A stretch of 64,000 nucleotides of DNA, taken from NCBI GenBank assembly GCA_902801515.1, contig CADCII010000018.1, positions 18,319 through 82,318 on the forward strand. The letters run 5' to 3'. Source of the DNA: an uncultured Lachnospiraceae bacterium. GTDB lineage: Bacteria; Bacillota; Clostridia; Lachnospirales; Lachnospiraceae. The number at the start of each line of letters is the position of its first letter. The first letter of the stretch is position 1. Made by a program: the position numbers and the translations under genes. Below, one piece after another: positions 15,401 through 31,980 of the stretch. Under the pieces are notes generated by a model. The model searched no databases and was not told where the DNA came from. It was given only the letters and a program-made list of their open reading frames with translations.

Positions 15401-18400
15401 TCTGGATCTCATGGCCTTCAGACGCGGTAACTGTCAGATCTACATTCTGGTTAACCAGGGCGTTGATAACCCCATCTTCACCGACCATCGATTCGTCTTC
15501 CACGGAAATGAAAACATCTTCATCCGCTTCCTTAACTACCGGAATCTTCCAGTTGCGGTCTAAACCTTCACGCCCATATGCACCAGCCTGCACATTTATG
15601 TTGATCGAATCACCTGCATGTATTCCCCTGTCAGAGAGTTCATCCCAGCTCAGGAAAACCGGGATGCCGGTCTGCTGTTCATCCTCGTAATCAAATTCTC
15701 TGCTGAAGAGGTTGTCCTCATCGTCCCAATCATCCACGTTGACAAAGACATGACCGCGCTGTGCATTTTCCGGTTTGGTGATCGTAAAGTTCAGGTCCCT
15801 GCCGGCTGTCAGAGATGCAGGGAGTACAGGCTCCGCAAGAGTAATCGGATTCAGTGTACTGTCTGCCGCCACCGTCAGTGTGATGGTTTCAGAGTCTCTG
15901 TAATAATACTGGTACATCGGACGGGGATTCCCGTCATCGTCGAGGAGAAGATTGTCATCTTCATCCCTCTCATAGCAGATTTCACCATTCTCATCGGTTT
16001 CGCACAGAAGTTCACCGTTGTCATCCAGAACAGGGTACCAGGCCCTTGCCATCAGGTAATAAGTTCCTGCTCTGCCATACCCTTGACGATCCTGGATATA
16101 GTCTCTTCCCCAACTGTTCGTTCTCCAGCCCTCATCCGGCCAGTCATAATACACCTCTATCCATTCTGCACCGGGAGCGTAAGCTGAAATATTGACCTGC
16201 TCTTCCGTAACGATCTCAGTCTTATCTGTCTGCAGCAGTATCCCGCTCGCAGGAAGATCTTCTTCAGGATAGTCTTCAACAATCAATTTCAGTGCCGGTC
16301 TTCCGCGATCATCAGTGCAGTATCCCAGCCGTCCTTCTGCCGCTGCTTCCGCACTGATCAGATATTCTCCTGCAGGAAGTCCGACGGTGTGCAGAACAGC
16401 AGTACGTTTTCCATCCGTCCAGTCTCCTGCCCAGTCCCAGGACCAGTCATAATCCCATTCCTCTTCTCCGTCATGCCACAGATTGGGCCAGTACTCCTCC
16501 GCATACTCCGCTTCTGTGAATGTCACAGTCACGTCTTCTCCGCGGATAACTGTATCCGGTTCCATGGTAATCTTGAAGGGACCTACCTCACCAAACTGCT
16601 GAGCCGTGATCTGGATTACATTTGATGTAATCCAATCTTCACTGTCTTCCAGGAGAACCTGCGCATAGAACCGGTAGGTACCAGGCCGGCGGTAACCGCC
16701 GCTCGTGTCATGCATGATCCGATTCCCGTTCTCATACCATGAGTCATACCAGTTATCCGGGCCAAATTCATCTCTCTCATACCACCAGTGATCCCCTGCG
16801 TCAACACGAATCGCCTGGATCGGCTTCTCCGCAGTCAGAGTTACATCGAATCCCTTATTGACCGGAATCGTCAGTTCCTTATCTTCATCTGAGTCTTCAT
16901 CGAATTCTTTAACGGTCAGGCATACCTGGTCACTCGGCTCCGCCAGCAGCACAGGGATATGTTCCTCCCGGATATATTTTTCATTGTAGCCGCGTGCGTG
17001 AAGCCATATCTCCACGTTAATGAACTGACCTTCCCATGTATCGAATGTGAAGGTGTGGTCTTCAGTATAGTCTCTCCAGTCTTCACAAATTGAATCCCAG
17101 CCATGATCTGTCTCTTCGGAGATCTTGACATTCATCCACTCAACCTGCTCATCCGGGAACGGGATTGTCAGTTCATAGCCTTCCTGCTCAGGGAAGAATG
17201 CCGGGATGCCCGGATCATAATCCACCGTCAGGTCCCCGTTTTCAGCATATACGGTAAATTCATGTACCGCACGGGCAATCTCTTCGGGTTCTTCATCTTC
17301 CACATTCTGGTATACAGTTGCTGTCAGCACATAATCACCGCTCTGGGAGATTGAATATCCATCATCCCGGAAATCCGTGCCTTGTCTGTTGTCGTACCAG
17401 TCTTCATCCCAGTATTCATTTTCATAATCTGTCTTCTCATAGATACGAACCTCCATAAACAGACGGTTCTCGTCCAGATCATCCTGGTTGTCAAAATATG
17501 CCGCGATTCGCAGCGGCTCAGAAACCTGATAAGTGTCCTTCATGGAGATTATGACGTCGCTGATACTGTCTCTCTGACCAACGTAGATATCAGCAGCATT
17601 TTCTGCATCTTTCCGGGGGGCACCGACTTTTATCGCATAGACGCGGACCTGGTATTCATGATCAGCTTCGATCTGTGCAACCGGAAATGAAATGAATGTC
17701 TTGCCATCCGCATTTGCTTCCACCCAGTGCGAATCTGCCCGACCGTATTCTGAATCAATATAGGCGCAGTAAAAGTCAACTCCGCTGACAGGATCCACCT
17801 CCAGGGTTACAAGACCATCCCTTGGAACCACAATATTCCCCTGATCGTCAGCCTCATTGGTCACCCGGAAAGTGATGCTGTCTTCGATCCTGCTGTCTGT
17901 CAATACTTTGAAGGAGAGAGAACGGTAACCCATGAGAACATCATCACTGTCATATGCCTGGACATAGACAACGTACTCCTCGACCTCCTCCTCATCCGGA
18001 TTCCAGCCAAACTGGGTATAGCCTTCATCATCCAGCCAGTATTGCTCTGAGCGCCTCCCATCGAAGAACCTGACATAATCAGCTCCGGGAGCCTCTACCT
18101 TGAACTCGATGTGTCCATACAGCATAGCTGTCAGTTCATTTTCATCATCAGGTTCCAGACCTTCTGCCCAGAAACTGATATCATCGCTCTGCTCCGGTGC
18201 TTCGATTGTCTTTTTCACATGCTCAGACTCGGCCGGTGCAAAGCCCGGGACCCAGGATTCCACCCAGAACTCATACTCACCATAGGCGGAGGTCCAGTCC
18301 ATATCATAGTCATCGAACACCTCGCAGGAAGTCTCATTTCCCCCGATCTGTTTTGGTATCGAAAGTCCGTTCGGGAATTTCCACCAGAGCAGATAGTATG

Positions 18401-19253
18401 CTGCACCATCCACCGGTTTCCACGCAACCGTATACGGCTCGCCATATTCCAGATCGTCATCGGACGTGATTACAGGAGCAGGAGCCGCTTCACCGTTCAT
18501 GTCATATACAAACGAATATTTCTGCCATTCCTCATCTTCCGAAAGACGCAGGAAGAGTGAATCCTCCCAGACATCCTCTCTCTCATCCGGGCTGGCCCAC
18601 AGGGAAGCAGTCTGCACCCCTTCGTCATCTACCTTATAGTCATGCCAGCTCTCGAGACTCTGCAGTTCTGAACCATCAGGCACAGTATCTTCAAAGTCAC
18701 CCCAGCCGACCCAGATCTCATCCGATTCGGTGCCGGTGACTATGACATTCCCTATATAGGAGTACTTGCCCCGGTATACACCCTTATCATCAGGCTCTGC
18801 ATTGAAGATCTCAATCCGGACTGACGGAGCCTCTTCTCCGTCCGCAGCCTCGAGGATCTCCTCCTCATCCGAAAGGATCTCCTCCTCGCCTGTAAGAACC
18901 TGCTCTTCGTCTTCTTCCGGAATTCCGTCTTCGACGACCATAATCTCCGGATCTTCCTCTTCTTCATTAACAAGAAGATCTTCTATCTCGACGAGTTCCT
19001 GATCATCTGAAGAAAGATCTTCCCCGTCCGTCACTAAAACATCCGCCTCTCCGGCAGCACTCTCTTCAGGGCTTCCGGGGATATCTGCCTCCTGCAGTTC
19101 AGCACTCTCTTCCGGTACCTCTTCCTCCTGCATGACAAGCAGAGCCTCGCCATATTCCGGCTCGCCCGCAAGAGCGCCTGAGGGCACAGAGGTAAACAGA
19201 AGCGCTGCCACGGATACGGCAGCAAGGATACGTCTGGATCTGATATGCATCAT
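9495..19253 (-). CDS. Giant secreted multidomain surface protein (3252 aa)
   Basis: A signal peptide (residues 1-29, ending in ALA) is followed by a strongly acidic Glu/Asp-rich linker to about 150. From about 150 to 2550 come many beta-sandwich-like modules rich in Asp, Glu, Trp and Tyr. A larger unit recurs about every 430-470 residues, marked by I-x-A-V-R-F-F-D-G-Y variants near 818, 1288, 1711 and 2146, each followed by ...VRxGDxVxVTFTxxEYAxxYW. Residues about 2550-2910 hold Cys-containing repeats ending in GH, with CxxCG pairs (for example CEVCGEIL). About 2930-3070 resembles the BspA-type leucine-rich region (WSISDDGTLTIS, KIGSNAFAGL), and two Big_2-like Ig domains (TWTSSNTSVATVS-type) close the protein at about 3090-3252. 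No LPXTG, dockerin or S-layer motif is visible, so its attachment is unexplained. AGGAGG is 8 nt from the first of two ATGs. The role may be adhesion or glycan binding; this is inference. Confidence 0.9.
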   Translation of the reverse strand: MMHIRSRRILAAVSVAALLFTSVPSGALAGEPEYGEALLVMQEEEVPEESAELQEADIPGSPEESAAGEADVLVTDGEDLSSDDQELVEIEDLLVNEEEEDPEIMVVEDGIPEEDEEQVLTGEEEILSDEEEILEAADGEEAPSVRIEIFNAEPDDKGVYRGKYSYIGNVIVTGTESDEIWVGWGDFEDTVPDGSELQSLESWHDYKVDDEGVQTASLWASPDEREDVWEDSLFLRLSEDEEWQKYSFVYDMNGEAAPAPVITSDDDLEYGEPYTVAWKPVDGAAYYLLWWKFPNGLSIPKQIGGNETSCEVFDDYDMDWTSAYGEYEFWVESWVPGFAPAESEHVKKTIEAPEQSDDISFWAEGLEPDDENELTAMLYGHIEFKVEAPGADYVRFFDGRRSEQYWLDDEGYTQFGWNPDEEEVEEYVVYVQAYDSDDVLMGYRSLSFKVLTDSRIEDSITFRVTNEADDQGNIVVPRDGLVTLEVDPVSGVDFYCAYIDSEYGRADSHWVEANADGKTFISFPVAQIEADHEYQVRVYAIKVGAPRKDAENAADIYVGQRDSISDVIISMKDTYQVSEPLRIAAYFDNQDDLDENRLFMEVRIYEKTDYENEYWDEDWYDNRQGTDFRDDGYSISQSGDYVLTATVYQNVEDEEPEEIARAVHEFTVYAENGDLTVDYDPGIPAFFPEQEGYELTIPFPDEQVEWMNVKISEETDHGWDSICEDWRDYTEDHTFTFDTWEGQFINVEIWLHARGYNEKYIREEHIPVLLAEPSDQVCLTVKEFDEDSDEDKELTIPVNKGFDVTLTAEKPIQAIRVDAGDHWWYERDEFGPDNWYDSWYENGNRIMHDTSGGYRRPGTYRFYAQVLLEDSEDWITSNVIQITAQQFGEVGPFKITMEPDTVIRGEDVTVTFTEAEYAEEYWPNLWHDGEEEWDYDWSWDWAGDWTDGKRTAVLHTVGLPAGEYLISAEAAAEGRLGYCTDDRGRPALKLIVEDYPEEDLPASGILLQTDKTEIVTEEQVNISAYAPGAEWIEVYYDWPDEGWRTNSWGRDYIQDRQGYGRAGTYYLMARAWYPVLDDNGELLCETDENGEICYERDEDDNLLLDDDGNPRPMYQYYYRDSETITLTVAADSTLNPITLAEPVLPASLTAGRDLNFTITKPENAQRGHVFVNVDDWDDEDNLFSREFDYEDEQQTGIPVFLSWDELSDRGIHAGDSININVQAGAYGREGLDRNWKIPVVKEADEDVFISVEDESMVGEDGVINALVNQNVDLTVTASEGHEIQTVRFFGGYDFWDDEDPDEDGVFHAGPSYWEEGIYSVFAMVTFDSWPEDYEGEGDPRTWVYTDTLKIRTVKKGDVGSFTISLDQQEVNRGDKVKVTFTPAEYAEDYWIHDDYDWYWEDEENRIAVINTLGMGEGEYWIRGRASADGYEGRDSSAVKLTVKPMEDVSEGDVILLTQEDTVALSQRLHTGVYAPGALRVGFLLDGEPWHLDEDGNYCWGDGDCWTSYEDIWWEDAWEAGEHTLQGCAQFEEDGEWSYSDIQKVTVTCKGILEFDRSTLPANITAGSGDVSVTVKLPENAAAMNIQLHEDYRVDPEDEEDDGWRRDEIDEWFDLTEDKVITIPAENLTAGHQIRIDFQAWAIGYGRAEDGQTIPVTPQTGEGAVLVLDEEEGGFTPTEGEEGAYDVLVNQNIVFRVRPAAEDQKLAAVRFFDGYGYWEEGKAMQPDLDEYDYCFDENDHFFSIQRYGESETRRVFAEVLLEGSEEWFTTNAITIHAKATGKTGTYDFDFTRMDHEITVQRGDPVTLFFTESEYADNYWADAFSDDEEWRSFNPRCSCSGTTVTMLTVNLPAGEYVVFGRAGNNAPGWQWTESDSNIRLTVTEPEDDDIRVIVDSTELMTHENLTISVLAPGAKRIGIAQDGWRHDLQDGDGEYQWDDTGDNWSGDFISWDNPGTYEVIAYAQYEDDGDWVSSDPVKITVLADGHVALDTSQIPFSVPAGQEVSFTVPWPEGDGVQYLGYDISVQPSSEGGAEYHIKRSDNTEGDAEISFTTGTVEYEDGEETKNYTIQVGDVIHLDLWAGGLGYEHLHIDLNIPVVNEAADTVSLSAVDEYGESLLANGTVSIVPNKQVRFIVSPGEGHTLTAVKFFDGYGYRENGDAIVREDERYYEDGRFFAWQGYGDPGQKTVFAMALLDDSEEWVSTNQIDVTVTSAGPAEPRDVTVPGYNLVREDTVITVEDPGEAWYHLSISTDQGGYWHNVLDYQYGDNRTDNNDGKIFLEGDAIAFSGQSDGGRPYGDLTLTIPAGVLDAGTYELNVDFAAEGFENNSVHRIFQIVEEPSVTLSTQKSRYTYGDAIELTITAPFADSVVLKKAGSDGEEDETLETWYASDPDVDVEHIAYSWIADEVRNDVTFYVEATFFDGSENCNDEVTLRIKSLGPAPEPTVIVPETLDEGEDLNVKFTDIPDGVSCNVEIYCQGDDSPLLSGSTEFDNLFTLAYTQAEIYRVTVEYGISGYDDGCLEYEVVVNHVYQAEFTWNDDGDDPSCTAEITCAKCLDINDTINEEDIEIRETERTEPTCKKAGSVTYTALVEYEEQTFENSKVYVLAATGHTPENMDAEEPTCTEPGYTAGTVCEVCGEILSGREVIPAQGHSWNDWTIEVDYEDNSADAVRYCDNCDEEIREEAAVTIETTAEPTCTADGEITYTAAYEPDDGKPLSETWTETISKLGHEWSKFEPDPERPATCDKAGWSISTCSRCGRKRDKNIPKLGHNWGEVTYTWAKDNSTVTATRVCANDKAHEHDETETAKVTSEVTIPATCDTIGKTTYTSKAFTNPAFQVQTKTLEDVSALGHAWGEVTYTWAEDNSTVTATRICANNSDHKETETVDVTGEVTTPATYTQMGKTTYTSADFTNQAFEQQTRTETDVPKKSASDTADENLAWSISDDGTLTISVADGAATGATKDEYTDEDPAPWIEAAKALGVTKIVVAEGVTKIGSNAFAGLDNVEDVSLPKSLEEISPTAFDDKTVSEASFSFAGTNEQWKSMTEGTALADKDVSTVHEHTWSEWKTVSKATIFKAEQQKRTCSGCGKSETRSNGKKLRATIRLSAISGQIAAGKKVQIAAQILPGNVKNYPLRWTSSNTSVATVSATGLVSVNKKAGGKSVVITAIAVKKIKISGKKTAKAGKSVKLKAKVTTTKGKANKKLQWTSSNTAWATVAANGKVTTKAAGKGKKVTITAMATDGSGKKKTFKIKIK

Positions 19254-19468: not shown

Positions 19469-21193
19469 TCACCCGATATTGACTGAAAACTGAACTTCTC
19501 CGAGTTCATTTACCAGAGGTCGAAGATCTTCACTGATTGTAATGCTCTGAAGCTGCGGAAGCTGAAGGAGCACGCTCAGATCATCGGCAGGTACGGCGAC
19601 TAGATTCAGTATCTTCAGTCCCGTATGGGCTGCCAGCGGAGACAGATCCGTCACTGCTGTGTGCGCGATGTCCAGTTCCTCCAGGCGGGCAACATCGTCC
19701 AGCACATGCAGATCGCTCAGGCCTGTCCAGGCAAGGTGAAGTGACAGGATGCTCTTCCCGCCAAGGTAGTCATAACTCTGCGTCGGATTGGACAGATCCA
19801 GATAATCAAAATTGCCCAGGTTTTCGATCGCCTGCGGATCGTAGGTTCTCACATCACACAGATCCAGAAATGCGAGGTTCGGACAGCTTTGAAGAGGCGA
19901 TATATCCGTCACGGGGTTGTCATTGATGCCCACCGAAGTCAGCCGGTCCATGTCTGACAGCACAGAGATATCCGTAATATAGTTGTGCTTGAACTCAACC
20001 TTGCTCAGCTGCTTCATTGATGCAAGGGCGGAGATGTCTTCCAGCTCCTGGGCAACGATACAGACCTGTTCCATGCCTGTCATCTGTGTAAGTTCGTCCA
20101 GTGTCTGCAGACTTCCCCGGGTACTCCTGCCGTCGGCATACCACTGGTTGATTGCCGGATAAAAACTGTCCGGATCCGGATAGGCCTTGTCCGCCACTAT
20201 ATAGACCGCAGTTACGGAAGGCAGCATATCCTCTGTCAGTCTGTCCCCCTCTTCCAGTCCCAGGTTCAGCCGCACAGCGCTTTCCAGAAGCGGATCTGAA
20301 AAAGTAACTTTCTTCCTGCTCATCTTCGGGAGAAGCACCGCACAGACAACAGCGGCGCATAAGACCCCTGCTGCCAGCAGCCCCCACAGGATGCCTTTAC
20401 TTCTGCGTCCGCCGGACTGTTTCTGTCCGAGTGCTTTTTTGAACTGGGCTGCACTCTCATACCGTTCTCTGGGATCAAATGCAGTGCACCGGACAAGAGC
20501 TTTTTTGAGAGGTGTATCTGTATCCTCCGGAGGAGCAGCCTTTCCAGTGAGCATCCAGGACAGCAGTATTCCCAGAGAATACAGGTCTGACCGTGCGTCG
20601 GTCTGAGCGAAACCGTACTGCTCAGGCGGGGCGAAGCCCTGCGTCCCGAACGGAACCGTATCCATATCCGTATCACGATCCGTGATAACGCGGGAGATTC
20701 CGAAATCGATTAGCACGGCGCATCCGTCCGGACGGATGATCACATTCTGTGGTTTAATATCGCGATGGATAACGGGCGGCGTAAGGCTGTGAAGGATCTT
20801 CAGCTCGTCGCACAGCTGCATACCTGTCCGGATCACGTCTTCTTCGCTGAAATGTGTATGCTTTGCAAGTTCTTCCAGAGTTTCACCTTCCACATACTCC
20901 CGAAGAACACACCTCATGTACTCATTCCGGTATTCTGCCACAAACCTGGGAAATGGGTCCTCGCTCAGTTTCCGGAGGGCTTCGGGTTCGGCCCGGTCAT
21001 AGAACGGGCCTGTCGCAAGGTGGCATTTCACGACATACAGCCTGTCGCTCTCCCTGTCCTTTGCCAGCAGTGTCCTGGTATCGTCCTGTTCACTGAAGCA
21101 TTCCAGCAGTTCGCACCTGGCCAGAAGCGGAGCGGGGTATTCATTTTCATCAGGCAGCTGTGCCGTGAATTCGATGTCTGTTCCTTCCAGCAT
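19469..21193 (-). CDS. Membrane Ser/Thr protein kinase with extracellular leucine-rich-repeat-like sensor
   Basis: The cytosolic kinase domain spans about 28-260. The catalytic Lys is K56 (VVKC), the catalytic loop is HRDIKPQN with D145, the metal-binding motif is DFG (163-165) and APPEQYG lies at 188-194. A single membrane helix (about 267-288) follows a basic stretch. The outside part (290-574) starts like the cap of internalin-type proteins and continues as short leucine-rich repeats built on DISxLxxMxxLxxVxFxxNxI, with 7-8 recognisable units. No PASTA domain is present. It is 12 nt behind the small DNA-binding-like gene, so the pair forms an operon: an outside signal read by the repeats would alter phosphorylation inside. 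Substrates are unknown. Confidence 0.9.
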   Translation of the reverse strand: MLEGTDIEFTAQLPDENEYPAPLLARCELLECFSEQDDTRTLLAKDRESDRLYVVKCHLATGPFYDRAEPEALRKLSEDPFPRFVAEYRNEYMRCVLREYVEGETLEELAKHTHFSEEDVIRTGMQLCDELKILHSLTPPVIHRDIKPQNVIIRPDGCAVLIDFGISRVITDRDTDMDTVPFGTQGFAPPEQYGFAQTDARSDLYSLGILLSWMLTGKAAPPEDTDTPLKKALVRCTAFDPRERYESAAQFKKALGQKQSGGRRSKGILWGLLAAGVLCAAVVCAVLLPKMSRKKVTFSDPLLESAVRLNLGLEEGDRLTEDMLPSVTAVYIVADKAYPDPDSFYPAINQWYADGRSTRGSLQTLDELTQMTGMEQVCIVAQELEDISALASMKQLSKVEFKHNYITDISVLSDMDRLTSVGINDNPVTDISPLQSCPNLAFLDLCDVRTYDPQAIENLGNFDYLDLSNPTQSYDYLGGKSILSLHLAWTGLSDLHVLDDVARLEELDIAHTAVTDLSPLAAHTGLKILNLVAVPADDLSVLLQLPQLQSITISEDLRPLVNELGEVQFSVNIG

Positions 21194-21205
21194 TCCAATG
21201 TCTCC

Positions 21206-21646
21206 TTAGTTTCTCAGACTCCCCAGCAGTGAAAACCCATATCTGGACAACAGTTCCTGCGTATCCAGGACAGAGGCTCCTCTTCTGAGACAATACAGAA
21301 TCACCGCTTCCCTCTTAAGGCGGGGATATAATTCACTCTTGCCGGCCGAACGAAGGAGTTTCTGGGTTTCCTCTACCCCCAATTCCATGCCCAGAGCCAG
21401 CTGGATCACCTTGTCCCTGGAAGGACGCCGTACGCCGCTGAACAGCTGATGACCGTAAGTCCGGTCGATCTCAGCACGAAGGATAACCTGCTCCGGGACA
21501 AGCCCCCGCTCTTCGCACAGGCTCCTGATCATCTGGTCAAATCCCGCCGCCTGCATATTATGCTCATTTTGCTCCAGAAATGCATCCAGATGCTTTGTTT
21601 TGAATAAACGCTTCATCAAGGTGCTGGTATTAATCTTCTCCGCCAT
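21206..21646 (-). CDS. Small helix-turn-helix-like protein paired with the membrane kinase
   Basis: This all-helical protein of about 146 residues has a stretch PSRDKVIQLALGMELGVEE that resembles the recognition part of an XRE-type domain, here embedded in a longer helical protein. I do not recognise a named family. GGGAGG lies 7 nt before the ATG at 21646, which I prefer to an upstream in-frame start at 21670. It is the first gene of the kinase operon. A palindrome matching one in front of the giant gene lies about 50 nt upstream, so autoregulation and control of the giant gene are plausible. It could also be a direct kinase substrate. Confidence 0.6.
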   Translation of the reverse strand: MAEKINTSTLMKRLFKTKHLDAFLEQNEHNMQAAGFDQMIRSLCEERGLVPEQVILRAEIDRTYGHQLFSGVRRPSRDKVIQLALGMELGVEETQKLLRSAGKSELYPRLKREAVILYCLRRGASVLDTQELLSRYGFSLLGSLRN

Positions 21647-21668
21647 GGCAAGCCTCCCTTTGCATTTC

Positions 21669-21712
21669 AATATAGCATAGTAAAGGGAAGAACAAGTATG
21701 CTGTTTGCATAC
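21669..21712 (-). promoter_or_regulatory. Promoter and candidate operator of the regulator-kinase operon
   Basis: On the minus strand TTGTTC (21690-21695) and TATATT (21669-21674) form a -35/-10 pair with a short 15-nt spacer. Directly upstream is GTATGC-TGTTT-GCATAC (21696-21712), followed by more GCATGC-like half-sites to 21724. The same GTATGC-N5-GCATAC occurs at 19401-19417. Confidence 0.55.
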
Positions 21713-21899: not shown

Positions 21900-23249
21900 T
21901 CAGAACAGGCCCTGTGCCATCATGGCGTCTGCGACTCTCTCGAAGCCTGCGATGTTGGCGCCTGCCACCAGGTTGTAGCCCAGTCCGTTGCGTTCTGCTG
22001 CCTGTACGCTGTTCTCATAGATGGTGTCCATGATGCGGTGCAGCTGCCTGTCTACTTCGTCTGCTGTCCAGAAGAGGCGCTCGCTGTTCTGGCTCATCTC
22101 CAGTCCGCTGGTTGCAACGCCGCCGGCATTGACTGCCTTGGAGGGTGCAACGATCATATCCGGCTGTTCCATCAGATAGCGGAGCGCATCGTTGGTGGTC
22201 GGCATATTTGCGACTTCGATGTAATAGCGGACCTTGTTGGCGACGATCTTCTCGGCGCTGTCCATGTGCACGTCGTTCTGCATCGCGGACGGCATGATGA
22301 TGTCTGCTTTCACGCCCCACGGTTTCTCGCCTGCATGGAATTCAGCTCCGAACTTGTCTGCGTAATCCTGTACTTTGTTGCGTCCGGAATTTCTCATCTC
22401 GACCAGGTAGTCGATCTTCTCCGGTGTATTGACGCCGTCCGGATCATAGACATATCCGTCCGGACCGGACAGTGTGACGACCTTCGCTCCGAGCTCTGTT
22501 GCCTTCTTGCAGATGCCCCAGGTTACATTGCCGAAGCCTGCGCATGCGATGGTCTTGCCGGCCAACTGTTCTCCATCATGCTTCAGGACATTTTCCAGAT
22601 AGTAGACGGAGCCGTATCCTGTTGCCTCCGGGCGGATCAGGCTGCCGCCGTAGGAGAAGCCTTTTCCTGTAAATGTTCCGTTCTCGAAGTTGCCTTTCAG
22701 CCTGCGGTACTCACCGAACATGTATCCGATCTCTCTGCCGCCGACTCCCATATCTCCTGCCGGGACATCCGTGTCCGGGCCGATGTAGCGGTACAGCGCC
22801 TGGATGAAGGACTGGCAGAAGCGCATGATCTCATCATCACTCTTGCCGGTGGGATCGAAATCCGCTCCGCCTTTGCCGCCGCCCATGGACAGGCCGGTCA
22901 GGCTGTTTTTGAATGTCTGTTCAAAAGCGAGGAACTTCATGACGCTCGGGTTGACGTTCTTCTGGAAACGAAGGCCGCCCTTGTACGGTCCGATCGCTCC
23001 GTTGAACTGGCAGCGGTATCCGTTCTGCGTATGCGCAAAGCCCTTGTCATCCTGCCATACGACGCGGAAAGAGAACATTCTCTCAGGCTCCACCATACGG
23101 CCGAGCAGGTCCACCTTCTCATATTCCGGATGGCGCTCCACTACCGTATCCAGTGAGGAGAGTACTTCCTCAACGGTCTGGCAGAATTCCGGCTGGTACG
23201 GATACTTTGCATTGACTTTTCCGATCACTCGCTCAATATAACTGTTCAT
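21900..23249 (-). CDS. gdhA: Glutamate dehydrogenase (hexameric, probably NADP-dependent)
   Basis: The 449-residue enzyme interconverts 2-oxoglutarate plus ammonia and glutamate. The substrate-binding region is GPYKGGLRF (88-96), the catalytic Lys is K126 in GGGKGGADFDP, and PAGDMGVGGREIGYMFG follows. The Rossmann motif GFGNVTWG lies near 235 and NAGGVATSGLEMSQN near 375. Length and motifs fit the bacterial 50-kDa class. It stands alone on the minus strand, with its own leader and terminator, and diverges from the PEP/pyruvate-binding gene. It could supply glutamate for proB or the aminotransferases, but that is general metabolism rather than a cluster link. Confidence 0.96.
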   Translation of the reverse strand: MNSYIERVIGKVNAKYPYQPEFCQTVEEVLSSLDTVVERHPEYEKVDLLGRMVEPERMFSFRVVWQDDKGFAHTQNGYRCQFNGAIGPYKGGLRFQKNVNPSVMKFLAFEQTFKNSLTGLSMGGGKGGADFDPTGKSDDEIMRFCQSFIQALYRYIGPDTDVPAGDMGVGGREIGYMFGEYRRLKGNFENGTFTGKGFSYGGSLIRPEATGYGSVYYLENVLKHDGEQLAGKTIACAGFGNVTWGICKKATELGAKVVTLSGPDGYVYDPDGVNTPEKIDYLVEMRNSGRNKVQDYADKFGAEFHAGEKPWGVKADIIMPSAMQNDVHMDSAEKIVANKVRYYIEVANMPTTNDALRYLMEQPDMIVAPSKAVNAGGVATSGLEMSQNSERLFWTADEVDRQLHRIMDTIYENSVQAAERNGLGYNLVAGANIAGFERVADAMMAQGLF

Positions 23250-23486: not shown

Positions 23487-26138
23487 ATGACTATTTGTGA
23501 GGAAAAAAACCTGAGCCGGATCGCCGCCGCACCTGACGCGGGGAGAAACATTGTTTTCTCGATGGCGGACCTGTCAGATTATCCGATTCTCCTTACCGGG
23601 ATCCTGCATGCCGCGCAGACAGCATCCATACCAGTCGTCCGTTTTCAGTTCATTTCCGACGAAGTCGACGGGCCGGCTCATTCCGTGGTAAAGCCGTCTG
23701 CTGATGGTCAGGAACCGGATCCGGTACTGACGGTCCCGATCATTCTGAATCACAGGTTCCGGAATTTTACAGTTGCAGTTCACAGAGAGATCGCTTCCCG
23801 GGAAAAGGGAACTCTCTTCCTGTTTGACTGCCTGTCAGGCCTGCAGACTGCGTGGGCTACTGACCTCATGATGGTCAACTTCTTTCGCGTAACAACACCT
23901 CTTCTGTCCGCCCGCGGTGATACCGCGCTCTTTCCTCTGAAGGCAGGGATGCACTCAGACACAGCAGCGCGCAAGATCTCGGAGACTGCGGATGTTTTCC
24001 TGAATGTGTGTTCCGACTTTAAAAATGTATATGTCCGTGCGGAGAAGATCCGCGGCGAGGAGGATTCCGAACTGTTCCAGCCGCACATGGTGGATCCTGA
24101 AACAGGCGCTTTCAGGCTGCTCACCGACGGTGTGAAACTCAGCCGGTATCACCGGGCGCAGGATATGACCAGCCGGATGCACCCGGACCTGAGCATGGAC
24201 AGCTGGGACCGGTTTTTCCTGAACACACAGCGCAAATACGAATATGGTGATGATCTGACTGAAGAATGCGCGAGGATGTGCCGGATCATGATGAGCCGGG
24301 ACAAGAGGATGCGCGGACTGATCCTGGAAAACTTCCGTCCGGAAGATTATTTCTTTGTCAAGGAGCATATGGTCGGAAGCGGACAGATCGGCGGCAAATC
24401 CTGCGGCATGCTTACTGCGCGCAAGATCATCGAGAACCGCCGCCCCGAACTGTATGACTACATGGAAGCGCATGACTCCTTCTATATCGGTTCCGATGTT
24501 TTCTCCGGATATCTCGTGGAAAACGGCCTGTGGGAACTGTCTGTGCGGCAGAATACGGAGGAAGAATATTTCTCACTCTCCGATACGCTGCGGGAGGAGC
24601 TTCTCAAAGGCGTTTTCTGGGAGGAGATCGAGCAACAGTTTCTGCATCTTTTGGAATATTACGGGCAGGCGCCGATCATCGTCCGCTCCAGCAGTATCCT
24701 GGAGGATGGGTTCGATAATGCATTTGCCGGGAAATACGATTCTGTGTTTGTCCCGAACGTCGGAACCATGGCGGAGCGGCTCTCTGCCTTTGAGGATGCC
24801 GTCCGTACTGTGTACGCAAGTACCATGTCACTCTCTGCCCTGGATTACCGCAAACGGCGCGGTCTTGCCGCCCGTGACGAGCAGATGGCAATCCTGGTCA
24901 TGAGAGTATCGGGATCTCATTTCGGAAACTATTTCATGCCCTGTGCGGCAGGCGTAGGTTATTCCTACAGTCCATACCGGTTCCTTCCCACACTGGATCC
25001 CGGCGCCGGGATGCTCCGTCTTGTTATGGGGCTCGGGACCTCGGCGGTAGACCGGACAGAAGGCGCCTATCCGCGCCTGGTCAGTCTCGACCAGCCGCAG
25101 GTGACTCCTTACCACTCCGTCTCGGAGCGGCACCGCTACAGCCAGAGGAAGATCTCCCTGATCGACAAGACAAGCGGAACCTTCCGTTATGTTTCTCTTG
25201 AAGAACTGTCACCAAGCCTTCCGGCCTGGCTGAAACGCATCCTCCTGGAACATGATACGGACGCGGAACGCATCTTCCGCGAGCGCGGCAGCATCCGGAA
25301 CATCGAATTCATTTCCTGCCGGGGCATCACCGGAAAGCAGGAACTGATGCAGCTTATGTATGAGATGATGCAGCAGCTGCAGACCTCATACGGACAGAGT
25401 GTGGATATTGAATTTACCATCAACCTCAGCGAAGACGGGGATTATGTGGTCAATCTGCTCCAGTGCCGTCCCCTGCTGATCATGCAGGATGACGCCTCTG
25501 AAGTGGAAGAAGCAGAGGCAGGGGCAGAAGATGTTAATGCGGAGGATGTAAAGGCAGACGGACCGGATGATTCCCACATCTTCCTGGAGACTGTGCGCTC
25601 TTCGATGGGTATGTCGCGCAATGCTCCTGTGGACGGGATCGTTCTGGTAGACCCGGTCGCCTATTATGAGATGCCCTACAAAGATAAACCGCAGGTTGCA
25701 AGAGTCATCGGACAGCTGAACTGGCATTTCAGAGACACCGGGAAGCAGCTCGTCCTGCTGACTCCGGGCCGGATCGGAACCTCTTCCCCGGAGCTGGGAG
25801 TCCCCACAGCCTTCTCGGACATCAGCTCATTCCGCGTGATCTGCGAACTGGCAGAGTCACGGGCCGGATACCAGCCGGAACTGTCCTACGGCAGCCATAT
25901 CTTCCAGGATCTGGTGGAGGCGGATATTCTGTACGACGCCGTCTTCGAAGATGAGAGGCGGGTTCATTTCCGCCCGGAGATGCTCAAAGCTCTTCCGAAC
26001 CGTATCCGGGAGATCGTTCCGGAGGCGGACGAATCCGTGATCATCTACTGCGACACCCAGGATCTGAACGGACGGATCCTGCATGATATGAAACACGAAC
26101 ACCTGACCATCAGCATAGGAAATGGTTTGAACCAGTGA
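23487..26138 (+). CDS. PEP/pyruvate-binding (PPDK-N-like) protein with RecA-like N-terminal region
   Basis: Of 883 residues, 1-270 look like a RecA/KaiC-type fold without a P-loop (LFLFDCLSGLQTA near 110, then ALFPLKAGMHSD). From 295 the protein matches the ATP-grasp pyruvate,phosphate dikinase N-terminal domain: GSGQIGGKSCGM at 298-308, IIVRSSSILEDG at 397-408, FAGKYDSV at 413-420. A C-terminal part has LLTPGRIGTSSPELGVP and SYGSHIFQDL, patterns I recall from uncharacterised PEP/pyruvate-binding proteins of gut bacteria. Both the phospho-His swivel domain and the PEP-forming TIM barrel of real PEP synthase are absent, so a full synthase reaction is unlikely. The start is an ATG with a weak GAGAAG site. 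The stop codon lies within a short repeat. The 1564-residue fusion follows 53 nt downstream. Confidence 0.85.
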   Translation: MTICEEKNLSRIAAAPDAGRNIVFSMADLSDYPILLTGILHAAQTASIPVVRFQFISDEVDGPAHSVVKPSADGQEPDPVLTVPIILNHRFRNFTVAVHREIASREKGTLFLFDCLSGLQTAWATDLMMVNFFRVTTPLLSARGDTALFPLKAGMHSDTAARKISETADVFLNVCSDFKNVYVRAEKIRGEEDSELFQPHMVDPETGAFRLLTDGVKLSRYHRAQDMTSRMHPDLSMDSWDRFFLNTQRKYEYGDDLTEECARMCRIMMSRDKRMRGLILENFRPEDYFFVKEHMVGSGQIGGKSCGMLTARKIIENRRPELYDYMEAHDSFYIGSDVFSGYLVENGLWELSVRQNTEEEYFSLSDTLREELLKGVFWEEIEQQFLHLLEYYGQAPIIVRSSSILEDGFDNAFAGKYDSVFVPNVGTMAERLSAFEDAVRTVYASTMSLSALDYRKRRGLAARDEQMAILVMRVSGSHFGNYFMPCAAGVGYSYSPYRFLPTLDPGAGMLRLVMGLGTSAVDRTEGAYPRLVSLDQPQVTPYHSVSERHRYSQRKISLIDKTSGTFRYVSLEELSPSLPAWLKRILLEHDTDAERIFRERGSIRNIEFISCRGITGKQELMQLMYEMMQQLQTSYGQSVDIEFTINLSEDGDYVVNLLQCRPLLIMQDDASEVEEAEAGAEDVNAEDVKADGPDDSHIFLETVRSSMGMSRNAPVDGIVLVDPVAYYEMPYKDKPQVARVIGQLNWHFRDTGKQLVLLTPGRIGTSSPELGVPTAFSDISSFRVICELAESRAGYQPELSYGSHIFQDLVEADILYDAVFEDERRVHFRPEMLKALPNRIREIVPEADESVIIYCDTQDLNGRILHDMKHEHLTISIGNGLNQ

Positions 26139-26181
26139 CAGGCACTTGTTCATGTGAACCAGTGGCAGGCACTTGTTCATG
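26130..26181. repeat. Two tandem copies of the GTGACAGGCAC repeat overlapping a stop codon
   Basis: Two near-identical units of about 26 bp (TGAACCAGTGRCAGGCACTT, then GTTCATG) run from about 26129 to 26181. The core GTGACAGGCACTTGTTCA is the reverse complement of the 21.8-kb repeat. The first copy contains the TGA stop of the PEP-binding gene, and the second ends 4 nt before the ribosome binding site region of the next gene. Confidence 0.75.
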
Positions 26182-26191
26182 AAGGAGTAAT

Positions 26192-29100
26192 ATGGCAAAG
26201 ATTACCGGTATCAATAGTCGTGAAGATCTTATAAGGTCGATCGTGTCCTCCTGTCCGCTTTCCGGAGACGGTGCGGATCTTTCGATCATGCCTGATCTGT
26301 GCTCAGAGGCGCTTATGCCCCTTCTGGGAAATGCTGCGCCGGACAGCTTCGAAGACTGGAATTCGTACTGCTGTGCGTTTCTGCTGGATGACTACTATCC
26401 CGGCAGGGCACAGGTCCATCTGAAAGAAGAGCGCAGGGAAGCGGTCCTGTTCTATCTGGACACACTGAATGCCCTGTTCGACCGGGAGAAGGCGGAGCTT
26501 GGACCGTGCCGGACCCGGGATCTGGTTCTTCTTGAGGAGGCTGAGTATAAAGGGTTCCGTACCACTGCGGAGTACGAGAAGCTTCTTGACTGTCTGCGCA
26601 GCCGCTATCTGTATGCGTTCATGAGACTGCACCGGGCTGTCACCCCGTTTGAGACATTGGGGCATATCGCCGGCGTCAATTTTGTGTCTGTATACATTGC
26701 GCGCCAGCTGCTCCATACAAACGTCCGGATCGATCCGGCACTCTCTTCAGGTGCGGCAATCCTGCATGATATCGGCAAGTATGGTTGCCGCCCGGAGGAA
26801 TCCAGACGTGTTCCTTATCTGCACTACTACTATACCTATCAGTTCGCCCAGAAGTTTGGTTTTGAATCCATCGGAGCGATCGCATCCGCGCATTCTGTCT
26901 GGGATCTGGAACTTGAGAACCTGAGTGTGGAAAGCCTGATCCTGATCTATGCTGATTTCCGTGTCAAGAGTGTGCGCCTGGAGGACGGGACGGAGCAGGT
27001 CTGCTTCTGGTCCCTGAAGGAATCCTATGACATCATACTCAGCAAGCTCGACAATGTGGATGACGCCAAGAGACGGCGCTACGCAAAAGTGTACGACAAG
27101 CTCAAGGACTTTGAGGACTATCTGATCTCACTCGGAGTATCTGTGGACCTTGAGGACGGATGGCATAAACCCAAAGCTCATACTCCTTTCTCTCTGATGA
27201 GTACCGAGGAGATGGTGCAGGCTTTCAAGTATCTTGCGATCTCACATAACCTGAAGGTCATGTACACCACCGGGCATGACGTCTCTTTCATCAGTCTGCT
27301 GGAGGACATCCGCGGAGAGAAAGACTGGCGTCATGTGCGCGCATTCCTGACCGTTATCGAAGAATACTCCGGCTATCTCAAACAGGATCAGAAACTGGTA
27401 ATCCTTGATTTTCTGTATGAAATGCTTTCCCACCAGGACGGTGATATCCGCCGGCAGGCCGCCAGGATCTCCGCCGTTGTAATGGCCGGTTTCGATATTG
27501 CCTTCAAGAAGGAACTTCCCGAAGATGTGGAGGCTCCGCAGATCGGCCAGCGTATGGCCGATGTCTGGCGCAGTTTTCTTCACCGTATGCTGTTCCCGAA
27601 CCATATGGTCACAGAGCAGCACCGGCGCTGGATCGGCTATGGAATGAAAACTGTCGTGCGCCATCTTCTTCGTCTGACCGAAGGGTCCAGACGGCGCGAA
27701 GTGCTGAATGTGATCCTGGAACATTACAAGTCTTCGCGTTGGGAGGGACTGACACAGTTCCTTCTGCTGGACTGCCTGCCGGAGATTCCTTATGACCTGT
27801 GCAGCGCCAATCAGCGCAAGCTTCTCTTCCGTTTTGACCGCCGGTTCCTGCAGGCAGACGATCCCGAGATCCGGGTGTCCGCGCTGCGGTTTATCGTGTG
27901 CTGGCTCAAGCAGGGCTGCAAACCGGATGATGAGATGATGGACGCACTCAGTTCGCTCACACTGCGCAGCGAAGATCCGGTGTGTATACGATATCTGACG
28001 CTGCAGATACGCAGGCTTGTGTTCGGGGAGGAGGGCTCTCTGGATTACGACGCCAAGTTCCTCTACATCGAGAATCAGCGCTCTGAGATCCCGTGGATCT
28101 TCAAGCTGGTCAACCTGGAGATCCTGCAGAAGGAAATGATGGAGGAGAAGGACCTTCTGAGGGTCTATCAGTATGCTTCCCATCTGCTGAACATCCTGCA
28201 GTTCAATTCCCGTGTGACAAATAAACTGCAGGCCGGTGAGAATCTGGTGCAGATCATGCCGAGGCTCTCCGAGTCACAGCGCTACGAGATCATGCTGGAG
28301 CTCGTGCGTGCCCTCTCCATGGGCCGCTACTCCGTCGCCAAGTACATCCCGCAGTTTATGGGGCGTATCTATGTGATCATGACGCCGGATGAACGTCATG
28401 CTCTGCTTGGTCAGCTGCACGATCTGTACGCGAGCAGCAACCCCGCCGTAGTGATCCTTACCCTGGAGACGGTCAGTGTCATCCTGCAGTATCTGCCCGG
28501 ACACGGCATCGAAGGGGAAGAACTGGAAGCACTGGAGGGAATGCTCTGCTCCGGAACGGTGCACTACGATATGGAAGTTGCCCGGGAAGCCTTTTATTTC
28601 CTGGGATCCGGCCTGTTCGGAAGCAGGCATCTGACGCTGGACCAGAAAAAAGAATACTTCACGGCCATGGCCCGCAAAGTCCTGACCTTTATCTTATGGG
28701 ATCAGGAGATCCCGCTGTGGTATTACAACGCCGCTTCCCTGAACCACATATACAGGTTCATTTCCGATTACCTGCAGGACCACGAGAGGATCGCCTTCCG
28801 GAAACGGGCAAAGATCGCCTTCTTCCCCGGAACCTTTGATCCATTCTCTCTCGGCCACAAGGCGATCGTCCGCGAGATTGCGTCGATGGGCTTCCATGTC
28901 TATCTGACGGTAGACGAATTCTCCTGGTCCAAGAACACCCAGCCGTACCAGATCCGCAGAAAGATCATGGTCATGTCGGTCGCGGACCTCAACGGCGTCT
29001 TCCTGTTCCCGGTCGAGATCCCGGTCAACATCGCTTGCCCGGATGATCTGGCCAGACTGCGCAGCTGCTTCCCCGGCGAGGAAGTCTATATCGTGGCAGG

Positions 29101-30886
29101 CAGCGATGTCGTGGAGCATGCCTCCGCTTACCGGGCTGAGCCATGCGAGAATTCCATCCACACCTTCCCGCATATCCTGTTCGCGCGCAATACCGAAGGT
29201 GCCTGGTCCGACGACAGCACAGCGCGCAGGAAACTGCAGGCAGAGGTCCTGTACCTGAAGCTGCCGGCTTATTTTGAAAATATGAGTTCCACCAGGATCC
29301 GCAGCAATGTGAGCGGCAATAAAGACATTGCGGATCTGGTAGAACCTGTGGTCCAGAACTATATCTATGAGAAGGGGCTCTACACGATGGAGCCCATGTA
29401 CAAGCGCGCCGCCCAGTCCCGCAGGGTGAACACTTACCTGTTCGACTCCCTGACAGAGGAACAGGAAAATGAACTGACAGATCATTTTTCTGATCAGTAT
29501 CTTGCAGGAGCAGGCGGGGAGAAGGCCGTGATCCTGAGAAATGAAGAAAAGGATGACCACATCTGCGGCGCAGTTCTCTACCATGAGCTTGCGGTCGGGG
29601 AACTTTACGAGTCCTGCGGAGACATCGATCTGGCGGCTTCGCTGCGCAATGAGCTCTCTGGCCGGACCTGTGTCCTCACGGATATCCTCGGCGATGCGGA
29701 TCGCTGCAGTGACGACCGCTACACGGTACTCAACGAGATGCTTGCCCATTGCCAGGAGGAAGGGTATTCCTATGCTGTATGCTTCCACGGCAAAGAATAC
29801 GACGACCTGCTCAGGGGAAGCGGCTTCCTGCCGATGCCCCAGATGGAGGACTGCTATGTCACGGATATGCGCAGGCCTCTGGTGCTGATCTTCGATACGC
29901 CATCTTTCATCAAAGACCAGTTTTCAGGAGATCCCGCCGTTCAGGATATACTGTGGGACAGCCATCTGAAACTTCGCCGCGAAGTTGCCATGCTGTTCCC
30001 GGGTCAGCTCTCTCTGTGCTTTGACTCCGAGATCCTGAATCACCGGCTGATCCAGCTGATCATCCAGAACAATCCGGTGGATCCGGAGCAGAGCGGTCCC
30101 AGAAAGCTCGGTCCGAAGATCTGCGTCCCGTTCGGAAAGACCCTGCGGGGCGTCCTGGTCCCGAACTGCGTGACGAAAGACCTGAACACGGAGAAACTCT
30201 ATGACATCGACATGGAGAGCTTCACCATCAAAGAGTTCCCGCATTACGCACCGCTGAAGGTGCAGATCCGGACCATCAAGTCCTTCATGCGTCCCGTAAT
30301 CCTTGTGGATGACCTCTATCACAAGGGGTACCGTCTGCAGGCGGTAGAGCGGGTAATGAAAAATGAGGATCTGAAACTGAATAAGCTGATCGTCGGCGTG
30401 CGCTCCGGACGCGGCAATGACCTTGCAAATGTGCTGGAAGAGCCGATCGAATCTGTCTACTTTGTCCCGAATATGCGCTCGTGGCTCATCGAATCGGATC
30501 TGTATCCGTTCATTGGCGGCGACGGGATCCGGGTCAGAGAGCAGATCCATTCCTCGCCCTCCCTGCCGTCCGTCAACTCGATCCTGCCGTACCAGTTCCC
30601 GTCCTTCATGAAAGGGGCATCCATGGAAGCATTCTACAATTTGTCCGTGGTTTGCCTGGAGAATGCGCGCAACATCTTCCTGGTCCTGGAGAAACTCTAT
30701 CAGGACAAGTACGGCCGGAAGCTGACCATGTCGCGCATAGGCGAGGTCCTGGCAGAGCCCAGGCACCCGGATACCTGTATCCTGGACACCTCGGTGGTAC
30801 AGGAGTCCCCGTCGCTGCTGCTGCGGCGCGAGATGCAGAAACTGCACAGGCTGAAGCATCTGCTTGACGGAGAGTTCCGGATGTAA
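26192..30886 (+). CDS. Giant fusion: HD domain, helical repeats, NMNAT/NadD-like, GNAT-like and PRTase-like domains
   Basis: This 1564-residue protein has several parts. An HD phosphohydrolase domain is at about 150-260 (H157, the H192-D193 pair of ILHDIGK, H234, D255). A long alpha-helical region resembling HEAT repeats covers about 350-860. A nucleotidylyltransferase domain follows: FFPGTFDPFSLGHKAIV starts near 875 with the T/HxGH-type signature, and SSTRIRSN near 1031 matches the ISSTxIR motif of NadD. At about 1070-1220 there is a GNAT-like stretch (YSYAVCFHGKEYDDLLRGSGF). At about 1280-1450 a phosphoribosyltransferase-like domain carries VILVDDLYHKG near 1369. GAAGGAG is the ribosome binding site. 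NadD and an HD protein (YqeK) are neighbours or fusions in Firmicutes, which makes nucleotide chemistry likely. The overall function is unknown. Confidence 0.85.
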   Translation: MAKITGINSREDLIRSIVSSCPLSGDGADLSIMPDLCSEALMPLLGNAAPDSFEDWNSYCCAFLLDDYYPGRAQVHLKEERREAVLFYLDTLNALFDREKAELGPCRTRDLVLLEEAEYKGFRTTAEYEKLLDCLRSRYLYAFMRLHRAVTPFETLGHIAGVNFVSVYIARQLLHTNVRIDPALSSGAAILHDIGKYGCRPEESRRVPYLHYYYTYQFAQKFGFESIGAIASAHSVWDLELENLSVESLILIYADFRVKSVRLEDGTEQVCFWSLKESYDIILSKLDNVDDAKRRRYAKVYDKLKDFEDYLISLGVSVDLEDGWHKPKAHTPFSLMSTEEMVQAFKYLAISHNLKVMYTTGHDVSFISLLEDIRGEKDWRHVRAFLTVIEEYSGYLKQDQKLVILDFLYEMLSHQDGDIRRQAARISAVVMAGFDIAFKKELPEDVEAPQIGQRMADVWRSFLHRMLFPNHMVTEQHRRWIGYGMKTVVRHLLRLTEGSRRREVLNVILEHYKSSRWEGLTQFLLLDCLPEIPYDLCSANQRKLLFRFDRRFLQADDPEIRVSALRFIVCWLKQGCKPDDEMMDALSSLTLRSEDPVCIRYLTLQIRRLVFGEEGSLDYDAKFLYIENQRSEIPWIFKLVNLEILQKEMMEEKDLLRVYQYASHLLNILQFNSRVTNKLQAGENLVQIMPRLSESQRYEIMLELVRALSMGRYSVAKYIPQFMGRIYVIMTPDERHALLGQLHDLYASSNPAVVILTLETVSVILQYLPGHGIEGEELEALEGMLCSGTVHYDMEVAREAFYFLGSGLFGSRHLTLDQKKEYFTAMARKVLTFILWDQEIPLWYYNAASLNHIYRFISDYLQDHERIAFRKRAKIAFFPGTFDPFSLGHKAIVREIASMGFHVYLTVDEFSWSKNTQPYQIRRKIMVMSVADLNGVFLFPVEIPVNIACPDDLARLRSCFPGEEVYIVAGSDVVEHASAYRAEPCENSIHTFPHILFARNTEGAWSDDSTARRKLQAEVLYLKLPAYFENMSSTRIRSNVSGNKDIADLVEPVVQNYIYEKGLYTMEPMYKRAAQSRRVNTYLFDSLTEEQENELTDHFSDQYLAGAGGEKAVILRNEEKDDHICGAVLYHELAVGELYESCGDIDLAASLRNELSGRTCVLTDILGDADRCSDDRYTVLNEMLAHCQEEGYSYAVCFHGKEYDDLLRGSGFLPMPQMEDCYVTDMRRPLVLIFDTPSFIKDQFSGDPAVQDILWDSHLKLRREVAMLFPGQLSLCFDSEILNHRLIQLIIQNNPVDPEQSGPRKLGPKICVPFGKTLRGVLVPNCVTKDLNTEKLYDIDMESFTIKEFPHYAPLKVQIRTIKSFMRPVILVDDLYHKGYRLQAVERVMKNEDLKLNKLIVGVRSGRGNDLANVLEEPIESVYFVPNMRSWLIESDLYPFIGGDGIRVREQIHSSPSLPSVNSILPYQFPSFMKGASMEAFYNLSVVCLENARNIFLVLEKLYQDKYGRKLTMSRIGEVLAEPRHPDTCILDTSVVQESPSLLLRREMQKLHRLKHLLDGEFRM

Positions 30887-30993: not shown

Positions 30994-31980
30994 ATGCATA
31001 AGATCACGGACCTTTGCTCCGCATACCCATACCCAAAAGACCATATTTCTTCGTATCCATGGGTGATGCGGGATGAGACGGATCTGAAGAGAGTTCATAT
31101 CATCGGTCTGGGAGATGTTGGACTGAATGCCGCTCTCGGGCTTCGGATCACAGGAGCAGGCAGTGTTTCAAAGATCGGAATCTATGACATTGACCGGAAA
31201 CTGTGCGACAGGCTGGAGATCGAGATCAACCAGATCCTGTCCCCACTGGGAAAAACAGTTTATCCGGATGTCGTGATCCTGGAAGAGGAGGAACTGTTTG
31301 ACTGTGACATCTTCCTTTTCTGCGCTACAAAAAGTGTACCCCCGCTCGGGGCGGAGGCACACAGTGATGTGAGAATCGCGCAGTTTGAAGCGAACCGGAA
31401 GATCATCGCCGGTTATGCGAAGCAGGCAGCTGATAAAGAATACAAAGGATTGTTCGGCGTTGTTTCTGACCCGCTGGACCTTCTGTGCGGAGTGGTCCTG
31501 GACTATCTGCATCCGGACCAGATCCAGGGATTCGGGTTAGGCGTCATGTTTGCCAGAGCAGCCTACTATGCAAAACGGCTTGCACATACCCATTATGCGG
31601 TTTTTCCTGAGAACGGCCGGGTTTACGGCCCCCATGGGAACGGACTTGTCGCAGTGAACAGCATCCTCCCGGAAGAATATAACGACGAAGCAACCGCACA
31701 GCTGACCCGTCTGACCACCAACGCCAATATCAGTGTTCGGGAGATCGGCTATAAACCGTATATCGCTCCGGGTGTCTCTTCCGTCGCACTGACAATACCG
31801 GAGGTCATTGCCGGCAGCTGGAACGACAGCGCAAGGTTCCTGAACGGAGTCTTCTTCGGAGCCCGGAACCGGCTCACACCGGCCGGTACGCAGTGGGAAG
31901 ATCCACTGCTTCCGGATGAACTGTTCTGCAGGCTGCGGGACAGTTATCTTGATCTGGACCGCAGAACCCATGAGATGTAA
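30994..31980 (+). CDS. Divergent lactate/malate dehydrogenase family protein
   Basis: The 328-residue protein has a Rossmann start VHIIGLGDVGLNAA (34-47) and an acidic YDID ending strand 2 near 65. A later GLGVMFARAAYY (181-192) and YGPHGNG (211-217) align with the LDH motifs containing DSAR and GEHGDS. On that alignment the catalytic His (H214) and substrate Arg (R188) are kept, but the Asp that pairs with the His is Met (M185). An Arg-rich substrate loop (SDVRIAQFEANR) is present. It may have a changed substrate or lack dehydrogenase activity. It follows the giant fusion gene by 107 nt on the same strand, with AAAGGAG before the ATG and a strong terminator after it. Confidence 0.8.
   Translation: MHKITDLCSAYPYPKDHISSYPWVMRDETDLKRVHIIGLGDVGLNAALGLRITGAGSVSKIGIYDIDRKLCDRLEIEINQILSPLGKTVYPDVVILEEEELFDCDIFLFCATKSVPPLGAEAHSDVRIAQFEANRKIIAGYAKQAADKEYKGLFGVVSDPLDLLCGVVLDYLHPDQIQGFGLGVMFARAAYYAKRLAHTHYAVFPENGRVYGPHGNGLVAVNSILPEEYNDEATAQLTRLTTNANISVREIGYKPYIAPGVSSVALTIPEVIAGSWNDSARFLNGVFFGARNRLTPAGTQWEDPLLPDELFCRLRDSYLDLDRRTHEM

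Follow-up and report, generated by a model that had tools for sequence, protein, structure and literature searches.

A five-part HD and NadD-like fusion protein and its redox-protein partners in Lachnospiraceae and other families of the phylum

What is the role of a 1564-residue fusion protein with HD and NadD-like domains encoded by an uncultured Lachnospiraceae bacterium, and which neighboring genes form a unit with it? The gene (p2) lies in a stretch of 64,000 nucleotides (the window) of a 3.08 Mb genome, where p1, p2, and p3 are consecutive on the forward strand, with intergenic gaps of 53 bases (p1/p2) and 107 bases (p2/p3). An earlier note on this DNA had proposed a two-gene unit of p1 and p2; both open reading frames are present where it placed them and are conserved, but the p3 gene (30994-31980), which it missed, also belongs to the unit. 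Near copies of the locus come from records whose titles name uncultured Lachnospiraceae, Clostridia, or Clostridiales, and some of these records carry the label Reindeer, Rumen, or RUG. The features of the locus are:

21900..23249, - strand: gdhA-like gene, divergent neighbor of p1 in eight loci of the genus (context only)
23487..26138, + strand: p1, 883 aa, P-loop-less KaiC/RecA-like front followed by PPDK_N ATP-grasp domain and C-terminal part
23487..24161, + strand: p1 residues 1-225, KaiC/FlaH/RecA-like fold lacking Walker A (Foldseek; motif scan)
24384..25502, + strand: p1 residues 300-672, PPDK_N ATP-grasp domain (Pfam, E 7.4e-42)
26192..30886, + strand: p2, 1564 aa, five-part fusion
26552..27361, + strand: p2 residues 121-390, HD domain (Pfam; alignment; motif rule from PMC8177086)
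27362..28795, + strand: p2 residues 391-868, scaffold of helical, HEAT-like type (weak support)
28796..29386, + strand: p2 residues 869-1065, NadD-like nucleotidyltransferase (Pfam; NCBIfam below cut-offs; hhalign)
29387..29875, + strand: p2 residues 1066-1228, GNAT-like fold (Foldseek on model)
29876..30883, + strand: p2 residues 1229-1564, putative PRTase-like C-terminal part (motif level)
30994..31980, + strand: p3, 328 aa, constant p2 partner from the LDH/MDH superfamily

All five parts of p2 are under purifying selection (dN/dS 0.05-0.12 in comparison with locus L024, and 0.10-0.20 with L021, where synonymous sites are near saturation), and thus p2 is no chance open reading frame; against L024 the values are 0.08 for p1 and 0.14 for p3. 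The multiple alignment of p2 contains 27 rows from a set of 54 genomes, which includes Acetoanaerobium noterae. It leaves out disrupted and incomplete genes (for example L048, L063, L071, and L075, as well as fragments at contig ends) along with L065, L066, L069, L105, L107, L109, and L110, which are full-length, and it does not include the loci L122-L139.

The HD domain announced in the earlier note is confirmed by a Pfam match of 25.7 bits (cut-off 22) and by the six dimetal ligands H158, H192-D193, H211, H234, and D255, all kept in 27/27 aligned proteins. According to PMC8177086, this H..HD..H..H..D set is diagnostic of a dinuclear site, and all such phosphohydrolases have an arginine three residues before the first histidine; that arginine is found in 0/27 aligned p2 proteins. 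Comparison of the p2 HD part with four YqeK proteins gave an hhalign probability of 0.2%, although Pfam sees an HD domain. The same method found NadD in p2 and yet missed this HD similarity to YqeK, so that its negative results count for little. Together with the NadD-like part, the HD part is the most conserved in p2 (mean identity 0.53; 43/270 positions invariant). The scaffold that follows it was also predicted by the earlier note, and here the helical, HEAT-like character holds weakly: HEAT matches occur in relatives and are below cut-off, and residues 395-441 match a designed protein (PDB, E 1.5e-5).

The assignment of the NadD/NMNAT-like transferase stands as well, with a cytidylyltransferase-like domain at 23.2 bits (Pfam cut-off 21) and an hhalign probability of 98.3% (E 1.5e-14) against housekeeping NadD; TIGR00482 scores 39.4 bits on p2, its cut-off being 112.45. 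Mean identity in this part is 0.58, with 43/197 positions invariant. The residues of SSTxIR and the second histidine of HxGH are kept in 27/27 proteins, which together with the match to NadD makes ATP use plausible. The first histidine of HxGH is replaced by Ser (18/27) or Thr (9/27), and the PPHK motif, invariant in four housekeeping NadD proteins, is absent from 11 p2 rows examined for it; NaMN is therefore a doubtful substrate, as judged from these motifs. We also considered p2 as the housekeeping NadD and rejected it: a separate NadD above cut-off is encoded in 15/15 genomes tested, including 13/13 with p2.

The two remaining parts of p2 are less clear. The structure models were built from 9 and 7 rows of window and related-locus sequences, and that of the p2 C-terminus is useful mainly for the GNAT-like part. 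Of the Foldseek matches listed for this part, 49/50 are acetyltransferases or acyl-amino-acid/acyl-homoserine-lactone synthases, with a best E of 1.7e-3 and none at 0.001 or below. Residues 1066-1228 gave no PDB profile match, no acetyl-CoA pyrophosphate loop was seen by eye, and none of the other three named p2 domains is conserved as poorly (4/163 positions invariant). The GNAT-like part of the earlier note is thus retained, with moderate confidence, as a predicted fold, and gains nothing from PDB profiles. Its PRTase-like part is not established. PDB profile matches to the C-terminal part, located at the DD motif, have E 0.14 and 0.59; hhalign against three PRTases gave 0.2-1.6%, no better than an unrelated p3-family control (1.0%); and about two thirds of this part of the model is below pLDDT 50. 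Each D of the DD motif is present in 26/27 proteins, and the residues of the TGxT-type PRPP loop after it are replaced, so that the label PRTase-like remains an unproven, motif-level call.

The p3 protein belongs to the LDH/MDH superfamily by profile (best PDB match E 1e-11). With L-lactate and malate dehydrogenases it shares, besides the profile, the Rossmann GDVG and two arginines and a histidine aligning with those of LDH; Asp65, Arg127, Arg188, and His214 are kept in 17/17 aligned proteins. It differs from these enzymes in a rearranged active site. The positions aligned with Asp168 and Asn140 of LDH, which we take to be catalytic with the usual numbering, are occupied by Met185 and Asp159 in 17/17 proteins, so that of the LDH His-Asp catalytic pair His214 is kept and the Asp position is Met185. 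Dehydrogenase activity of p3 is uncertain because of these replacements, and the protein may act as a sensor or catalyze a new reaction. A further partner encountered in other genomes, p4, is a flavoprotein of the FMN-reductase family. It has PF03358 (FMN_red) in its C-terminal half in common with NADPH-dependent FMN reductases and iron-sulfur flavoproteins, and differs from them in an additional N-terminal half of about 170 residues. Four cysteines, CxxCx4Cx8C, are invariant in 12/12 aligned proteins, a spacing unlike that of Isf; p4 possibly binds FMN and an Fe-S cluster. The alignments of p3 (17 rows) and p4 (12 rows) were selected by us.

Distribution across genomes shows which of these genes travel together. 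With the genome of the window included in each sample, p2 was detected in 21/397 genomes of the family, 9/196 of the order, and 4/299 of the phylum; outside the family but within the phylum it occurs in several families, including that of A. noterae. Searching by the C-terminal part gave 8/388 phylum genomes (own included; this sample overlaps the 4/299 one), all inside frames of at least 1567 codons, and no standalone copy in the 388 genomes. Within the window's genus p2 is present in 12/18 genus mates (the 23/61 matches of that search also comprise the own genome and ten genomes with the NadD-like stretch only), and in the family of genome G916 in 8/13 genomes.

The p3 gene was found in the identical 21/397 family genomes, and in 20/21 further p2 genomes compared with 0/5 lacking p2, the p2 genome without a p3 match (G981) being 79% complete. 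It is located directly downstream of p2 on the same strand in 45/48 loci whose flank is 600 nt or longer, the flank being too short in six of the 54 p2 genomes; in the exceptions G916, G982, and G983, p3 and p4 lie together on another contig. Pairwise distances of p2 and p3 in 40 genomes are correlated (r 0.905; maximum of 1000 permutations 0.18), which may reflect mere species descent. In the other genera of the family, all 19/19 genomes with p2 also have the p4 gene. In the window's genus it was found in 1/13 p2 genomes (G010) and 0/6 genus mates without p2, and it is missing at the window locus; since it is absent from 12/13 p2 genomes of the genus, p4 is dispensable.

For p1 the pattern is nearly the opposite. 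Among the 38 genomes searched, p1-type genes occur in 13/13 p2 genomes of the genus, 0/6 genus mates without p2, and 1/19 p2 genomes outside the genus; in G006 the sole p1-type match begins like the paralogs, and the p2 fragment there has no flank. Where upstream flank is available in the genus, p1 is directly upstream of p2 in 11/12 loci, although it is interrupted by a stop in G016; in the twelfth locus (G010) p4 and p1 converge on p2-p3. Both p1 and p4 are found together only in G010 and G266; otherwise a family genome with p2 tends to have one or the other. It is therefore p2-p3-p4 that make up the wider unit, to which p1 was added at the level of the genus. Accordingly, the p1-p2 linkage of the earlier note is true of the genus and fails for 18/19 p2 genomes of other genera of the family.

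The reading of p1 itself in the earlier note is borne out. Its PEP/pyruvate-binding ATP-grasp domain is recognized as PPDK_N at residues 300-672 (E 7.4e-42), and K304, R400, D640-I-E642, and Q659-C-R661, which we take from PPDK to be the ATP-grasp set, are invariant in 7/7 aligned rows (L029, with a stop codon, was dropped). The PPDK_N domain is common to p1 and PEP synthase or pyruvate phosphate dikinase; p1 differs from these in its KaiC-like front and in the lack, among Pfam matches up to E 1, of the swivel-His and PEP-barrel families. To the eye, an invariant stretch GRIGTSSPELGVP looks like a swivel motif that lacks the histidine. The front, residues 1-225, is RecA-like with no P-loop, again as the note had it. 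Foldseek matches listed for it range from E 1.4e-8 to 1.9e-6, including KaiC (1.4e-8) and FlaH (7.6e-8); the model is of moderate confidence in this region and usable for about these residues only (mean pLDDT 44); a Walker A motif is present in 0/7 aligned rows, the window included. We suggest that p1 may contribute an input or a step that depends on ATP, and this in the window's genus only.

Paralogs of p1 are found away from p2 at L087:8911-11523, L088:1807-4380, and L086:8774-11407, the last being a second p1-type copy in the window's own genome; those in L087 and L088 adjoin a gene that resembles, by eye, an ammonium transporter. The gene at 21900-23249, presumably gdhA-like (named by recognition), is divergent to p1 in eight loci of the genus, window included. 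In G012 and G010 no such gene was observed although the flank is present there; it is also located near p2 in G266 and G246. This neighbor may point to a connection of p1 with nitrogen.

The presence of a NadD-like site in addition to the housekeeping NadD, the fused HD domain, and the partners p3 and p4 lead us to favor, tentatively, the possible reading that p2-p3-p4 form a redox-linked module in which an adenylylated compound, different from NaAD, is made and broken down. We infer activities, substrates, and physical association of the three proteins from the domains, each to the degree stated above, and from the invariant residues, gene order, and co-occurrence. The helical scaffold of p2 would carry the NadD-like and HD sites. 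The former would transfer AMP from ATP to an acceptor other than NaMN, yielding the adenylylated compound, and the dimetal HD site would cleave this product or side products. The redox step would be supplied by p3, NAD-binding and LDH-like with a changed active site, and by p4, with FMN and possibly an Fe-S cluster; the window's genus has for the most part lost p4, and p1 has joined the operon. The lack of the upstream arginine in the HD domain (27/27) and the replacement of the first histidine of HxGH (27/27) speak against this module, as do the altered active site of p3, the one p2 genome without a p3 match, and the absence of p4 from 12/13 p2 genomes of the genus. The main rival is a somewhat unlikely sensor complex, with p2 as a scaffold whose enzyme domains, decayed in part, bind ligands and read the nucleotide or redox state, p3 as an NAD(H) sensor, p4 as a flavin or thiol redox sensor, and output via the HD site. 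It agrees with the catalytically altered look of the GNAT-like part (4/163), the PRTase-like loop, the p3 site, and the p1 front without P-loop; however, the six HD ligands and SSTxIR, invariant in 27/27 proteins, exceed what a mere sensor needs, and Pfam matches of p1, p2, p3, and p4 include no DNA-binding or kinase domain.

An unlikely alternative to the adenylyl make-and-break module is NAD metabolite repair, in which dinucleotides would be made and wrong ones destroyed by the HD part, p3 and p4 treating damaged NAD(P)H. HD and NadD-like domains within one chain are in agreement with it, as is the proofreading activity of the mycoplasma NadD-YqeK fusion given in PMC9426524. However, a housekeeping NadD stands beside p2 in all 13 p2 genomes tested, PPHK and the first histidine of HxGH are missing from p2, and its HD part is unmatched to YqeK by hhalign. 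The order of parts is also reversed, NadD being first in the known NadD-YqeK fusion, and NF005519 aligns by its N-terminal part. It is very unlikely, in our estimate, that the operon makes and uses a private NAD-like redox cofactor: the PRTase-like part would build a mononucleotide from a base, the NadD-like part would adenylylate it, the HD part would remove wrong products, and p3 as dehydrogenase and p4 as flavoprotein would use the cofactor. The energy-state unit of p1 and p2 from the earlier note is most improbable. The position of p1 upstream of p2 in 11/12 testable genus loci and its absence from 6/6 genus mates without p2 favor it, but 18/19 p2 genomes of other family genera have no p1, and p1-type copies also occur away from p2. 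As a general unit it is largely refuted, and p1 could still serve as a genus-specific input. Its broader idea, that the system makes, modifies, or degrades a nucleotide, is still the best broad guess, whereas PEP or energy state is unlikely as the core function, because p2 genomes of other genera mostly lack p1 and have p3 as the constant partner.

The closest known system is the NadD-YqeK pair or fusion of mycoplasmas and Gram-positive bacteria, which like p2 can combine HD and NadD-type domains in one chain and has the six-ligand set. It differs from p2 in the order of the two domains, between which p2 has a scaffold of about 480 residues; p2 has in addition GNAT- and PRTase-like parts, the constant partner p3, and usually p4, and it lacks the PPHK of NadD and the HD arginine. 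None of the family libraries, which are dated (Pfam, NCBIfam, PADLOC, and PHROGs), names the whole assembly, and a limited search of open-access literature found no description of the p2 fusion. Taken whole, NadD, YqeK, PPDK, and LDH each fail on defining features that were checked; within the reach of that search and those libraries, we regard the assembly as a new one, composed of parts of known kinds. The joint gain and loss of a fusion of about 1560 residues and of redox proteins in several families of the phylum suggests that they serve a common task in anaerobes, as yet undescribed, in nucleotide or cofactor metabolism, or in sensing. The private cofactor, if true, would mean a new cofactor pathway; a modest reading still provides specific active-site residues and, in A. 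noterae, a host with a species name.

Several other identities were considered and rejected. A defense system is contradicted by the lack of PADLOC matches up to E 1 for p1, p2, and p3, and a phage system by the lack of PHROGs matches up to E 0.1 for the same proteins and of relatives in two viral-contig scans. As for a mobile element, the single match in the plasmid collection is a 2.63 Mb A. noterae record, a "plasmid" of chromosome size. An association with Ter (tellurite) genes was seen at one locus (G916), other loci being inspected by eye, and Ter-type PRTases gave hhalign probabilities of 0.2 and 1.5%. In G916 (L123:1-5801) the unlinked p2 is located beside two TerD genes and TelA, YceG_bac, and C-C_Bond_Lyase genes (Pfam), a set of Ter stress type.

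Other neighbors of p2 vary. PerR-like and/or rubrerythrin-like genes (by eye) are located upstream of p2 in several of the loci L064-L069 and L075, which represent one group of genera. In this group, LarB/LarC-like genes (L065:3623-5750) and a LarC-like gene (L066:15840-17201), also identified by eye, lie within a few kilobases of p2; the nickel-pincer cofactor of LarB/LarC is made from NaAD. In the window, further upstream on the minus strand, a small protein with a helix-turn-helix match below cut-off precedes a Ser/Thr kinase with leucine-rich repeats (Pfam; 19469-21670), and an open reading frame of 3252 residues occupies positions 9495-19253.
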